Shown: positions 30,516-37,749 of the stretch, one piece after another
Position numbering within the stretch: position 1 is the stretch's first letter
Layout of the letters: each line of letters begins with the position of its first letter
Assembly (NCBI GenBank): GCA_018700895.1
Contig: JABIUV010000013.1
Location: 1 to 47,753 of the forward strand
Direction of reading: 5' to 3'
Length of the DNA: 47,753 bases
Source of the DNA: Bacteroidota bacterium
Lineage (GTDB): Bacteria > Bacteroidota > Bacteroidia > NS11-12g > UBA9320
Position numbers and translations under genes: made by a program
Notes under the pieces: model-generated
The model's input: only the letters and a program-made list of their open reading frames with translations
What the model was told of the DNA's origin: nothing
Database searches by the model: none

Positions 30516-31631
30516 GTGTGCAAAATAGCAGGACGCAGGTTCATATACCTTGTAAGGAGTGATTCAAGATACGTTTTAGATGTTGCCCATAGGTCGCAAC
30601 TTAAAATTAAATTGAATAACTGCTTCACAAAAGTATTTCTTAAGATAACTCGATACGAGTATTGGCCGTGGTATATGCTATATATACCCATACTGCCTGT
30701 TTATTTTTTTGGCGTACTTCTTACTAGAAGATGGCTATATTTTACCGCTGCCAATCCGGGTATTTATATGGGCGGATTCTTTGGAGAGCAAAAGGATGAA
30801 ATACTAGATTTGATTCCATCGGACTATAAGGTTAAGACCATTTCGGTAGTACGGAAGTATGAAGAAGATGAGCTCAAAGAGTTGCTCAGAGAAAATAGCT
30901 TAGTGTTTCCGTTGGTTGTGAAACCTAATGTAGGGGAGCGAGGAGAGGGAGTGGAAATAGTGTATAGCATAGATGAGATAATGACTTATGGACAAGCCGA
31001 GCAGCATTTTTTAATACAGGAGTATACTGACTATGAGCTGGAGCTAGGCGTGTTGTTTTACAAAATGCCAAATGAAATATCTGGACAAGTTTCGAGCATT
31101 ACGCAGAAGGAGTTTCTACACGTGATAGGTGACGGTAAGCATAATGTATTGCAGTTATTACAAATGAGCCAACGAGGGCTCATATATGAAGATTTAGTGA
31201 AAAAGGAATTTTCAGTAAGATTGAACGAAGTACCTCACAAGAATGAAGTGGTCACTATACATCGAATAGGAAACCACTCTAAGGGAACTCGTTTCATAGA
31301 TGCGAACAAGCACATTAATGAGAGGCTTAATGCGACCTTTTCTCAACTAAGTAAGCATATTCCCAGCGTGTACTGTGGTAGGTATGATTTAAAAGTGCCC
31401 AATTATTCTGATTTGGAACAAGGTATGAACATCAAAATATTCGAAATGAATGGGGTAAGCTCAGAGCCAGGTCATATCTACGACCAAGGAAATGTTTTCA
31501 GTGCTTACATATTCCTAACTTATCATTGGCTAGCTATAATCCAAATATCACGTATAAATTTACAGAGAGGAATGAAAACCACTCCTCTTTCTGTCTTTTA
31601 TAAGACTATCATTAACCACTTTTGGGGTTGA
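30516..31631 (+). CDS. ATP-grasp enzyme, D-Ala-D-Ala-ligase-like
   Basis: A 371-aa protein with an ATP-grasp core: VVKPNVGERGEGVEIV (about 132-147) is the phosphate-binding loop, and FEMNGVSSEPGH (about 309-320) holds the Glu/Asn metal ligands. A hydrophobic N-terminal stretch (about 52-68) suggests a membrane contact before the catalytic domain. The family includes carboxylate-amine ligases; the substrate is not clear. GTG at 30516 is right after the lysA stop; a TTG at 30612 would give a shorter N-terminus and may be correct. It may share a transcript with lysA, a DAP-pathway enzyme. Confidence 0.7.
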   Translation: MCKIAGRRFIYLVRSDSRYVLDVAHRSQLKIKLNNCFTKVFLKITRYEYWPWYMLYIPILPVYFFGVLLTRRWLYFTAANPGIYMGGFFGEQKDEILDLIPSDYKVKTISVVRKYEEDELKELLRENSLVFPLVVKPNVGERGEGVEIVYSIDEIMTYGQAEQHFLIQEYTDYELELGVLFYKMPNEISGQVSSITQKEFLHVIGDGKHNVLQLLQMSQRGLIYEDLVKKEFSVRLNEVPHKNEVVTIHRIGNHSKGTRFIDANKHINERLNATFSQLSKHIPSVYCGRYDLKVPNYSDLEQGMNIKIFEMNGVSSEPGHIYDQGNVFSAYIFLTYHWLAIIQISRINLQRGMKTTPLSVFYKTIINHFWG

Positions 31632-33565: not shown

Positions 33566-34348
33566 TTATGGTTTTATTTTCTCGGTAAAAACATACAAGA
33601 GCATATGCGTTTTCTTCTTGGTGTTGAGCTCGCTCGGGCCTGTATAGATGTAGTTCACTTTTAGTTCCGGATGTTCTGTCTTAAAAGCTTTCAGCGTACT
33701 TTCTAATGTCTCCTTATCTCCCAAGAAAGGAAAATCAAACTTGTACATACCGTTAGTTATCTCTGCACCAGATACGGGAGTGTTCTTCGTATCCCAAGTG
33801 CTACTAGAGAAACTAAAGATGCTAATAGATGTAATAACCGTAAGTACTACTCCTGCTATCACTGTGAGGCGAAGACTCGTGCTAGGAGCAAGGTTTACGT
33901 TGTTACTCTCTGTATTGCCAATGTAAAGGAAAACAACCCAGGATATGAGTAGTATGCACCAAAATATGCCGTGTTCCAATAACGTGAATCTATCACCAAA
34001 CACTTGATCTCCGATGGAAAATAAACTGAAAAGTATAAGTGAAGTCAAAATGCCCCGTGAGAACCACTGCTCTGCCGATTTTGTATTCTTTCTTATAAGA
34101 AGCACAAGTGCAAGTAGAAAACTGGTAAAGGCCACAATCTCCACAATTGAAACACCCGCTAAGGCTATGGTCGCAAAAATGGGGTCCTTGATGCCAAGTG
34201 AGGCAAATAGCTTTACGAATAAGGTATAAAAATCTGCACCTACCCAGAGTGGGTATACATCTGGGATGAGCTTATCTAGTGCTGTGGTTCCTGCGAAAAA
34301 TAGCCAATGAATTAGAATTAGGTATTGAATTAGTTTGCTCTCTTTCAT
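33566..34348 (-). CDS. Unknown 5-TM membrane protein, paralog B
   Basis: A 260-aa protein with about five membrane helices, the third and fourth containing FSIGDQVFGDRFTLLEHGIFW, then a soluble C-terminal domain of about 65 residues with KFDFPFLGDKETLESTLKAF. It begins with ATGA overlapping the stop of its upstream paralog, so the two are translated together. The signature is shared with the paralog, but I recognise no known family; the helical pattern distantly recalls DoxX-like proteins. Function unknown. Confidence 0.75.
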   Translation of the reverse strand: MKESKLIQYLILIHWLFFAGTTALDKLIPDVYPLWVGADFYTLFVKLFASLGIKDPIFATIALAGVSIVEIVAFTSFLLALVLLIRKNTKSAEQWFSRGILTSLILFSLFSIGDQVFGDRFTLLEHGIFWCILLISWVVFLYIGNTESNNVNLAPSTSLRLTVIAGVVLTVITSISIFSFSSSTWDTKNTPVSGAEITNGMYKFDFPFLGDKETLESTLKAFKTEHPELKVNYIYTGPSELNTKKKTHMLLYVFTEKIKP

Positions 34349-35142
34349 TGCTTTGAGACGGTTTGTATGTAAATGATGAGTCCGTCTGACTTGCCCAGAC
34401 GAAGTGGCTTTGGAGCGGTATAGATGTTGTCTATATGTAGAGTGGGATTCTCGCTCAAGAATTTTTCTAATGAGTTCTCAAATGCCGTGCTGCCTGCTAA
34501 GAACGGAAATTGAATCTTATAGGTGTCTTCTGTGATTTGCTCTACAGCCACAGCTTGTGTTCGCTCTACGAAGGAAGTATGATTGTGATAAAAAATAGAA
34601 GCAGTGATAACTAGAGCAGATACTATTGTTGCAGCTAGAAATGCGTTTCGTTGCTTGGCGGTAACGCCTACTTGATTAGGTAATGGGATACGATCTAGAC
34701 CTGTAAAAACAACCCAGGATAGGAGTGCAATAAACCAAAATAGTCCGTGCTCCAATAGCTCAAAATGGTCGCCAAACACTTGATCTCCGATGGAGAAGAA
34801 AGTAAATGTGGCGAGTGAGAAGCCAACGCCTACTAGAAACCACGAGCGAGTAGATTCTCTATTTTTAGTGAGATGATAATAAAGAGCTCCCACAAAGAAG
34901 ACCAAAGCAAAAATCTCTAATCCAGCGGTAATAACTAAGGCGATATTGGCGAATACAGGATTCTCTAATCCGATGGAATCGAAGAATCGCTCTACTTGAG
35001 CAAATCTATCTCTCCCTACAAATAGGAGGTGAGCACCACCTATGATTTTGTCTGCCACATTGAGTAGCCAGAATAGCGACCAATAGATAATAATAAAATA
35101 GCGTACGAGGTCTTTTTCTCTTGTGTGTGTTGTGTTGGTCAT
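34345..35142 (-). CDS. Unknown 5-TM membrane protein, paralog A
   Basis: A 265-aa protein of the same design as its neighbour: helices at about residues 12-32, 60-87, 100-120, 125-145 and 165-185, the shared signature FSIGDQVFGDHFELLEHGLFW, and a C-terminal domain with KIQFPFLAGSTAFENSLEKF. The N-terminal helices differ most. A tandem duplication with a four-base overlap (ATGA) implies the products act together, perhaps as a hetero-oligomer. Function unknown. Confidence 0.75.
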   Translation of the reverse strand: MTNTTHTREKDLVRYFIIIYWSLFWLLNVADKIIGGAHLLFVGRDRFAQVERFFDSIGLENPVFANIALVITAGLEIFALVFFVGALYYHLTKNRESTRSWFLVGVGFSLATFTFFSIGDQVFGDHFELLEHGLFWFIALLSWVVFTGLDRIPLPNQVGVTAKQRNAFLAATIVSALVITASIFYHNHTSFVERTQAVAVEQITEDTYKIQFPFLAGSTAFENSLEKFLSENPTLHIDNIYTAPKPLRLGKSDGLIIYIQTVSKQ

Positions 35143-35775: not shown

Positions 35776-37749
35776 CTACCCACATCCTGGCTTACCTTTT
35801 CCTTTATCACCTTTCTTAGGTTTCATATACTTCTCCATCCCTTGATTATTCGGGTTGCCGTGTTTTTTGATGAACTTGTCGGCTTTGCCTTTGTAGCGTT
35901 TTTTATCGGGCTTTGGCTTGCCGAGCAGTTTATCGACCAAGTGAGATTGCTTGGTGCCGTGAAGTTTGTCTTTTATCCACTGGCGATTTTCTGGCTTGTA
36001 CCAAAAGAAAAATTTGTGCTGATCTTTTTTCTCGTGTTTAGACTTAGGTACGTAGTATTCCTCTAGCTTATACGGATGGTAACCCGAGTAGTATATCACC
36101 GTGGCTACCGTCATAGGAGTAGGAGTGAAGTCTTGCACCTGCTCTAGCTGAAAGCCCATATCCTTGGTCTCCGCTGCTAAGTTTGCCATATCTTCTTCCT
36201 TGCACGCTGGGTGACTGGAGATAAAGTACGGTATGAGTTTCTGATTCAGATTGAGCTTTTTGTCAATCTTGTCATACATCTTTTTGAAACTATGAAAATG
36301 CTCAAACTTAGGCTTACGCATTATCTTAAGTGTATCGTCAGACGTGTGCTCTGGAGCTACTTTTAGCCTGCCACTCACATGACGCGTCTGCAGCTGCTCC
36401 ATATACTCTAGCATTTCACCTTCATCGCCTTTTTTGTTGTACGACTTGGTGAGTAGGTCGTAGCGTATACCTGAGCCGACAAATGCTTTTTTGATTTTAG
36501 GGTTGGCGTCTATTTTACGATAAAGCTCGGTCATAGGCTTATGACTAGTGTCCAGATTGTCGCATACCACTGGGTGTATACAGCTCGGTGTGTTGCATCT
36601 ATCGCATATGGACTGCACCTTACCTTTCATTTTGTACATATTGGCACTGGGGCCAGCTATGTCGCTCAGGTAGCCTTTGAAGTCGGGCATATTCGTCACC
36701 GCCTCTACTTCTTTGAGTATGGACTCTTCCGATCTACTTGCTATAAACTTACCTTGGTGGGCAGAGATAGTACAGAAACTACATCCACCAAAACACCCAC
36801 GGTGTGTATTGATACTGAACTTAATCATATCAAAAGCGGGAATTGGTCCTTTTTTATTATACTTGGGATGTGGTAGTCTCGTGTAGGGCAAATCGAAAGC
36901 AAAATCGATTTCCTTTTCCGTCATAGTCTCAAATGGCGGATTGATAATCAGATTTTTGTTATAGGTATTTTGAATAATGCGTTTGGCTTGTACGCTATTA
37001 CTCTCTTGTTCCACTACCTTAAAATTGGCTGCAAAAGCTTTTTTGTCTACTAAGCAAACTTCGTGAGCATTAAGCTCTACATCGGTCCACTTTTTGTTCT
37101 TGGGTACTCCTTCATCCACAGGTCGTTGGTAGGCTGTTTGCTTTACCATCGTGAGTTGGTGAAACGGAACACCTTTTTTCAGTAGTTGTAGTATCTCACG
37201 CAGTGGTTTTTCGCCCATACCGTATACTAGTAAGTCGGCACCACATTCTTCTAGTATGTTGGGTAACAACTCGTCACGCCAATAGTCATAGTGCGTCACT
37301 CTCCGTAATGAGGCTTCTATTCCACCAGCCAAGACAGGAACATCAGGATACAAGTCCTTTAGTATTCTGGTGTAGACCGTCATAGCATAGTCGGGTCTCA
37401 GGCTAGAATTACCTCCCGGAGAATATGCGTCGGTACTTCGTCTACGCTTGTTGGCAGTGTAGTGATTTACCATAGAGTCCATATTGCCCGATGTAACTGC
37501 AAAGAATAATCTAGGAGCACCTAGTTTTTTGAAATCTCGGAGGTCATCTTGCCAGTTGGGTTGTGGGATTATCGCTACGCGAAAGCCTTCACTCTCTATG
37601 ATACGCCCGATAACAGCAGCACCAAAAGCGGGGTGGTCTATATACGCATCACCTGTGATGAGTATGACATCGAGGTCTGACCAGCCGTGTGCTTCTACTT
37701 CTTTTTTGGTGATAGGAAGCCATTTGGATATAGGACGTTGAGATTGCAA
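35776..37749 (-). CDS. YgiQ-family radical SAM protein
   Basis: A 657-aa radical SAM protein with the [4Fe-4S] motif CFGGCSFC (CxxxCxxC) at about residue 320, an N-terminal flavodoxin-like domain beginning LDVILITGDAYIDHPAFG and a Lys-rich C-terminus. YgiQ-family (UPF0313) enzymes are poorly understood. Start is TTG at 37749, 5 bases after a TACCTTCG near-consensus -7 box; no ATG is present at that end. The gene seems monocistronic or followed by the small helical protein gene. Confidence 0.9.
   Translation of the reverse strand: MQSQRPISKWLPITKKEVEAHGWSDLDVILITGDAYIDHPAFGAAVIGRIIESEGFRVAIIPQPNWQDDLRDFKKLGAPRLFFAVTSGNMDSMVNHYTANKRRRSTDAYSPGGNSSLRPDYAMTVYTRILKDLYPDVPVLAGGIEASLRRVTHYDYWRDELLPNILEECGADLLVYGMGEKPLREILQLLKKGVPFHQLTMVKQTAYQRPVDEGVPKNKKWTDVELNAHEVCLVDKKAFAANFKVVEQESNSVQAKRIIQNTYNKNLIINPPFETMTEKEIDFAFDLPYTRLPHPKYNKKGPIPAFDMIKFSINTHRGCFGGCSFCTISAHQGKFIASRSEESILKEVEAVTNMPDFKGYLSDIAGPSANMYKMKGKVQSICDRCNTPSCIHPVVCDNLDTSHKPMTELYRKIDANPKIKKAFVGSGIRYDLLTKSYNKKGDEGEMLEYMEQLQTRHVSGRLKVAPEHTSDDTLKIMRKPKFEHFHSFKKMYDKIDKKLNLNQKLIPYFISSHPACKEEDMANLAAETKDMGFQLEQVQDFTPTPMTVATVIYYSGYHPYKLEEYYVPKSKHEKKDQHKFFFWYKPENRQWIKDKLHGTKQSHLVDKLLGKPKPDKKRYKGKADKFIKKHGNPNNQGMEKYMKPKKGDKGKGKPGCG

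Follow-up and report, generated by a model that had tools for sequence, protein, structure and literature searches.

An overlapping gene pair of scattered Bacteroidia encodes two membrane proteins that most likely belong to a divergent, duplicated DoxX-like family

The members of the DoxX family other than DoxD have been described as mostly uncharacterised and as mis-named DoxD by automatic annotation (PMC6704655). In a second study, a DoxX-domain protein, SodA and SseA were proposed to form an oxidoreductase complex (PMC10943396). We collected 42 DoxX proteins of related genomes (from the set L058-L147) and found that a Lys in the first transmembrane helix (TM1) and a Glu in TM2 covary completely: K occurs with E in 27/27 cases, and residues other than K occur with K or R in 15/15, which reads as a simple rule for a putative ion pair of the DoxX fold. 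The human receptor assembly factor NACHO/TMEM35A (PDB 9h9e_B) was detected by a profile that we built on 13 DoxX/DoxX_2 sequences of related genomes, at an E-value of 1.3e-6, and was the only significant match to this profile among the PDB sequences searched, indicating that NACHO itself is DoxX-like.

Here we describe two genes in a 47,753-nucleotide stretch of DNA (hereafter, the window) from a Bacteroidota bacterium (contig JABIUV010000013.1). Both lie on the minus strand. Gene A (34345..35142) is the upstream ORF and encodes 265 amino acids (aa); gene B (33566..34348), the downstream ORF, encodes 260 aa and is an ancient paralogue of A. As read from the sequence, the stop codon of A and the start codon of B overlap in ATGA (34345..34348, minus strand), suggesting that the two genes are translationally coupled. 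The initial annotation had reported two adjacent genes overlapping by ATGA and encoding proteins of the same design, and this description holds: both ORFs are present, A and B share 36% identity over 254 residues with zero gaps (E-value of 2e-55), and the models of both consist of five long hydrophobic helices and a small tail. A and B were the sole copies found by search in the window's own assembly. A promoter and terminator scan gave promoter-like sites at chance level at the locus (5 sites, where shuffled sequences had 7.1 on average).

The two proteins have in common a FSIGDQVFGDxFxLLEHGxFW block and a FPFL segment in the tail. The block, assigned from the sequence, the model and the invariant residues, covers residues 116-136 of A (FSIGDQVFGDHFELLEHGLFW; 34735..34797, minus strand), where it runs from the end of TM3 through a turn to the start of TM4, and residues 110-130 of B (FSIGDQVFGDRFTLLEHGIFW; 33959..34021, minus strand). 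The FPFL segment reads IQFPFL in A and FDFPFL in B. It lies in a small C-terminal domain, modelled as beta-beta-alpha-beta-beta, that spans residues 200-263 of A (34354..34545, minus strand) and residues 194-257 of B (33578..33769, minus strand). The near-identical block and tail noticed at the outset were confirmed in both proteins, and the block holds many of the residues that are invariant across relatives.

Thirty residues were identical in all 76 proteins from 38 intact pairs. In the numbering of A these are W21, F24, D31, K32, V42, G43, D45, F54, S56, L69, E76, F116, D120, F123, G124, D125, L129, L130, E131, H132, F135, W136, K209, P213, F214, L215, E222, F228, T242 and Y258. The polar set D31, K32, D45, E76, D120, D125, E131 and H132 is thus kept in 76/76 proteins and in both copies. 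Y241 and P244 were found in 75/76 proteins, the first G of the block varies (Ala in 19/38 B proteins), and Q121 is replaced by His in 32/38 A proteins. No conserved Cys was found among 16 proteins, each of which has 0-2 Cys at differing positions, and no Cys is among the residues invariant in the 76 proteins. The conserved Cys pair of thiol oxidoreductases (DsbB, VKOR, DCC1 and the partners of MauE) is absent from A and B.

The codons used for the same block residues differ between A and B (13/21 identical in the window), suggesting that the identity in the block reflects constraint at the protein level and ruling out gene conversion. The dN/dS ratio between close pairs was 0.07-0.13 in 6/8 comparisons; the two closest ones (L015/L016, with few changes) gave about 0.33-0.34. 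Several of the dS values are above 1 and thus saturated. Conservation and dN/dS together rule out chance or an annotation artefact. The A-B pair is a genuine module under purifying selection.

No Pfam or NCBIfam model matched at its cut-off when the two window proteins, 12 members or 44 members were scanned at E-values up to 10. PF07681, PF13564 and PF04173 were absent from the 25 of 41 families listed for the 44 members. MauE (PF07291) was weakly matched by 4/44 members (best E-value of 0.087), and the BT_3928 family by 1/44 (0.017); the MauE-type protein L092 also matches the BT_3928 model below its cut-off. Models of cytochrome o subunit IV reached E-values of 0.019 (4/44 members) and 0.86 (1/44) only, so that a quinol oxidase subunit, named at first as a family that could explain the motif, does not account for it. 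A match to L025 (18.8 bits), which we take to be a YihY-like protein, was judged from its sequence to be due to hydrophobicity and chance. Neither A nor the family profile had a sequence relative in the PDB, and a literature search on DoxX-like proteins and NACHO listed nothing on the A/B family. By these comparisons, A and B appear to fall outside all named families.

AlphaFold models of A and B were built on 12-sequence alignments (A, pLDDT 75 and pTM 0.56; B, pLDDT 74 and pTM 0.60). Both place TM1, a short helix and TM2-TM5 before the beta-beta-alpha-beta-beta tail. NACHO/TMEM35A (9h9e_B) ranked first in VIA-align for both models. The A model matched it with a Z of 11.4 (3.1 A, 128 residues aligned), the next unrelated structure scoring 9.8, and the B model with a Z of 11.5 (2.7 A, 130/133 residues aligned), the next scoring 8.2. 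The matches cover 128 (A) and 130 (B) of 133 residues and support a DoxX-type four-helix bundle, although both Z values are below 13, under which, according to the advice of VIA-align, a match between helical bundles may reflect a common arrangement. The sigma-2 receptor (Z 7.7) and VKOR (Z 5.4) ranked below NACHO for A. Foldseek gave no PDB match below an E-value of 0.06 and nothing below 0.16 in BFVD; the Foldseek check proposed with the initial annotation gave no significant match, while VIA-align ranked NACHO first for both proteins. For the small tail domain, the B model weakly matched the ribosomal S6 permutant 6i6s (Z 5.5, 69 residues aligned), and profile searches of the PDB returned chance matches only.

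The mean number of K and R residues is 3.1 in the N-terminal segment, 2.9 in the 11-residue TM2-TM3 loop and 0.6 in the TM3-TM4 segment. These counts suggest an N-in topology with the small domain outside. The initial annotation had placed conserved Asp, Glu and His within membrane helices; they are indeed conserved, but in the model most of them lie at one helix end or in the TM3-TM4 turn and only E76 is in the middle of a helix.

We aligned A and B with the DoxX proteins by three methods. With MAFFT in two modes, K32 fell on K in 26-27 of the 42 DoxX proteins and E76 on E in 27 of the 42. The TM1 Lys/TM2 Glu hallmark is thereby present in A and B, in which K32 and E76 are invariant (76/76). 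For NACHO, both modes recovered the Lys, the Glu and H132, and one of them also G124-D125; in the NACHO alignment, HQLVGDPLKRYAH falls on DQVFGDHFELLEH. The genafpair mode placed D120 rather than D125 on the DoxX acid, and H132 is not general in DoxX. The turn of L064, a PF07681 protein from a related genome, reads GAHFGEPFSEKEHSLIYF and aligned with the signature. The pattern [GD][DE].[FWILS].{3}E..[LIVM].[YFW], which was picked after examples had been seen, occurs in 76/76 A and B proteins, 3/29 DoxX, 0/30 DoxX_2, 0/25 MauE and 0/423 neighbouring ORFs.

In a profile alignment NACHO matched 5/8 of the invariant polar positions, against a maximum of 2 in 200 shuffles, 1 in 50 hydrophobic ORFs and 1 in 42 reversed DoxX proteins, but the alignment depends on the gap cost and collapses at opening costs of 11 and 13. 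With the A rows alone, K32 and E76 were unmatched, and with the B rows alone, E76. The 42 forward DoxX proteins matched 0.52 positions on average in the same test; 29 matched none and two matched four. In hhalign against six classical DoxX proteins, E76 fell on E and E131-H132 on EH, the same register being reached unaided, with P of about 0.002 (0.27-0.38 when reversed) and a probability of 11-16% (15.7% at most; 0.2% when reversed). Broader hhalign comparisons were weaker, with probabilities of 12% and 1.9% for DoxX, 0.3-0.4% for DoxX_2, 0.1-1.5% for MauE and 2.5% for A2 against A5. DoxX proteins outscored other hydrophobic ORFs in a rank test (p of 3e-8), but they also did so with the reversed profile (p of 6e-5), indicating that part of the score is composition.

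Is the resemblance to DoxX real? A and B could form an unrelated four-helix family that resembles DoxX by chance and composition, as the lack of an HMM match at threshold, the weak hhalign scores and the gap-cost dependence would allow. We consider this unlikely, because NACHO is the top-ranked fold for both models and the three alignment methods agree on the TM2 Glu and the GD..H/EH turn, two of them also on the TM1 Lys. The statement that no family with this signature is known therefore stands as far as library models at threshold are concerned, but it is in part overturned by the NACHO-first fold and by the position of the signature on the DoxX TM3-TM4 turn. DoxX, which had been named as a family that might explain the motif, is the best available reading at the superfamily level, though not as a confident HMM match. 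Taken together, these data suggest that A and B most likely represent a divergent, duplicated DoxX-like family with a fifth helix and a small outer domain.

Compared with the described systems, A and B share with NACHO the four-helix bundle, the TM1 Lys, the TM2 Glu and the turn (HQLVGDPLKRYAH against DQVFGDHFELLEH), but NACHO is a single copy, its matched part has no fifth helix or small outer domain, and the A/B family's own sequence profile misses it. DoxX proteins (PF07681), including the HvfX-like L064, share the TM1 Lys/TM2 Glu and the turn G[DE].F...E (the full pattern in 3/29 ORFs), whereas the copies that we read are about 125-165 aa long, without TM5 or the tail. DoxX_2 (PF13564) has the four-helix layout and the TM1/TM2 charge pair, but lacks the GD...EH turn pattern (0/30), as does MauE (0/25 ORFs). 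MauE is weakly matched (4/44), and many of the MauE copies read carry CGCFGD, whereas A and B have no conserved Cys. DoxD/DoxA, the thiosulfate:quinone oxidoreductase, presumably resembles A/B in joining a DoxX-like membrane part to an outer domain. Neither was among the listed matches of A and B, and DoxD was found in 5/40 related genomes but not in the window's own.

A scan of genome contigs with A returned five loci, and in all of them both genes are present, A ahead of B. In the taxonomic order of the window, 4/108 genomes carry intact copies, a fifth genome (G019) has a remnant only, and the sixth listed match is weak and contains stops. An even draw across the class gave 4 real carriers among 395 genomes (three other listed matches are weak), and a draw across the phylum gave 2 of 395, both already known (two others are weak). 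A richer order was found elsewhere: 50/399 genomes carry matches, at least two in 45 of them, and the five with a single match show partial matches. In the family of G388, 2/10 genomes carry the pair. Weak matches (G098, G146, G266, G444, G524, G607) and those at a looser limit (G002, G003, G025, G033) were left out of the counts.

We assembled 42 loci, 34 newly fetched and eight earlier. Both genes were called in 40 of them, and 35 of the 40 have an overlap of exactly 4 nt; the others have overlaps of 8 nt (twice), 23 nt and 1 nt, plus one frame-broken locus. The window and all seven further loci of the first set (7/7) have the A-B order with the ATGA overlap. A and B formed two reciprocal clades with 100/100 support in trees of 16 and 76 rows (38/38 pairs), suggesting that one duplication occurred before the spread of the pair, and the branching is parallel, the main groupings repeating in the A half and the B half. 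The fixed order, the ATGA coupling, the reciprocal clades and the parallel branching suggest that A and B probably form a heteromeric complex, as the initial annotation had proposed from the tight pairing, and we infer that a heteromer is likely. The A-B pair is kept together in scattered Bacteroidia.

Two genomes of different families (G008 and G101; L036/L037) share 3.2 kb and 1.4 kb around the pair at 93-96% identity (about 4.6 kb, in two pieces). This sharing could be a recent transfer, and mis-binned contigs could also explain it. L013 and L014 have only the pair itself in common, 1.55 kb at 78% identity. The pair is mobile as a unit. Viral contigs yielded no relative in two scans (A1 and A6; 61 pattern stretches each, zero confirmed), and neither did 72,556 plasmids and 50,697 phages searched for A or B; PHROGs gave nothing below 0.039. 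A PADLOC CARF2 match (E-value of 5.8e-4) in 1/16 members was judged to be chance. On these scans, a phage, plasmid or defence origin was rejected. In L005 (G019), the features at 1354-1797 and 7-1245 are a remnant with about 108 C-terminal residues of gene B, 92% identical in DNA to L037, and an adjoining integrase-like ORF; the N-terminal stretch of the remnant is unrelated. It is a decayed copy after transfer. At another locus, a tyrosine recombinase (Pfam Phage_integrase; L013, 3332-4630) lies a few genes upstream of the pair.

The initial annotation had also proposed gene-neighbourhood analysis. This revealed recurrent local partners but no gene that accompanies the pair in all 42 loci. 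In one genus (L191, L192, L193, L195) an operon that encodes PTPS, GTP cyclohydrolase I, a 160-aa product, an SDR and a DNA photolyase ends 72-84 nt before the pair. In L189 and L194 a same-cluster photolyase lies upstream at a distance of two to three called genes; the L192 and L189 loci were tested against Pfam. The thioredoxin reductase gene (trxB) immediately follows the pair in the window, at 146 nt, whereas in L205 it is upstream in an apparent operon. A fatty acid desaturase gene begins 1-4 nt after B in L213 and L215 (Pfam-tested in L215), three f21 loci have a 4HBT thioesterase gene 14-21 nt after B (Pfam-tested in L197), in L190 a gene of the Esterase_PHB type shares 4 nt with B, and a DCC1-like protein is encoded upstream in three g366 loci (L211, L212, L216; Pfam-tested in L211). 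These neighbours may point to envelope, lipid or oxidative upkeep, yet they differ by lineage.

Several other genes near the pair were recorded. A radical SAM gene, which we take to be YgiQ-like, is upstream of the pair in the window (35776-37749) and occurs in 11/19 genomes of the genus; in 8 flanks fetched from pair-less genomes, thioredoxin reductase is not beside it. A 371-aa ORF (30516-31631), by eye presumably ATP-grasp-like, has no Pfam match at an E-value of 0.001 and is unusually fast-changing, with 54% identity in L012, where the PLP decarboxylase and trxB next to it both reach 93%. In two f21 loci a 297-aa membrane protein is encoded 38-120 nt after B (L200, 4621-5514, and L199), and the L200 copy has no Pfam match.

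The neighbours bear on what the A-B complex might do. It may help another protein of the membrane, or an exported one, to assemble or fold, in the way that NACHO serves pentameric channels. NACHO is the top fold match, the small outer domains could grip a client, and genes for esterases with a T9SS-type sorting tail lie nearby (overlapping B by 4 nt in L190 and two genes upstream in L016 and L036); but a likeness of fold shows no function, no constant client gene is beside the pair in the 42 loci, and the esterases were called beside the pair in only 4/42 loci, with a further 3' remnant in L037, so that we regard a chaperone role as doubtful. A membrane accessory module against light or oxidative stress, as proposed for mycobacterial DoxX complexes, seems to us improbable to a similar degree. 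The photolyase operon upstream of the pair in one genus, the thioredoxin reductase in the flanks of 8/42 loci and the DCC1-like thiol oxidoreductase encoded just before the pair in L211, whose cluster recurs in L212 and L216, would fit such a role, but the photolyase link is confined to one taxonomic family, the orientation of trxB varies between lineages, and most loci have no such neighbour.

The initial annotation had suggested that the conserved Asp, Glu and His bind an ion, a proton or a metal. This suggestion did not gain support; at least K32 and E76, which match the covarying Lys-Glu pair of DoxX, may more simply be a structural ion pair. A membrane enzyme or transporter that depends on a metal or couples to protons, in which D31, D45, D120, D125, E131 and H132, with or without E76, would form a carboxylate/His site in each subunit and A-B would be the catalytic unit, is the least likely of these alternatives, because K32 and E76 look structural, there is one His only and no conserved Cys, and no metal or electron-transfer neighbour is conserved, even though the eight polar residues are invariant in 76/76 proteins and both copies and L064, which has the best FGE..EH turn, matches HvfX (copper-binding RiPP maturation) below the cut-off (32.7 bits, cut-off 80).

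We rather favour, as the explanation with the better chance of being right, an A-B heteromer of divergent DoxX-like subunits with a structural K32-E76 pair, a polar cleft and an accessory role. In this explanation A and B would associate in the inner membrane as the subunits of a single heteromer, in the simplest case a 1:1 dimer. Each subunit would be a very divergent DoxX-like four-helix bundle, with a fifth helix bearing a small ferredoxin-like periplasmic domain, and a buried ion pair between K32 in TM1 and E76 in TM2 would hold the bundle together. With the predicted N-in topology, D31, K32, D45, D120, D125, E131 and H132 would be at or near the outer face and E76 deeper. At the periplasmic end, beneath the small domain, D31, D45, D120, D125, E131 and H132 would form the walls of a polar cleft. 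Because both copies keep all cleft residues, both are predicted to be active and neither to be an inert partner. The cleft would most likely bind a polar ligand, a metal ion or a segment of a client protein, and the complex may be an accessory module for assembly, protection or envelope maintenance rather than a thiol enzyme, as the absence of a conserved Cys makes thiol chemistry unlikely. The sidedness, the cleft, the ligand and the role of the A-B complex are put forward here as predictions. A bolder view, to which we give little credence, is that duplication of a DoxX-like bundle gave a new two-subunit complex with a full acidic/His site, beneath the small outer domain, in each subunit; it would have two active sites and handle a ligand or a metal in the envelope of Bacteroidia, with no counterpart in the family libraries that we searched.

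DoxX-like proteins are abundant and poorly understood. The A/B system is compact, lacks a conserved cysteine, keeps a sharply conserved set of polar residues, is encoded by two coupled genes and has a clean history of duplication. It is therefore well suited to studying what the polar end of the DoxX fold does and why it would need two different subunits. The catalogue of 30 invariant residues allows direct mutational tests.
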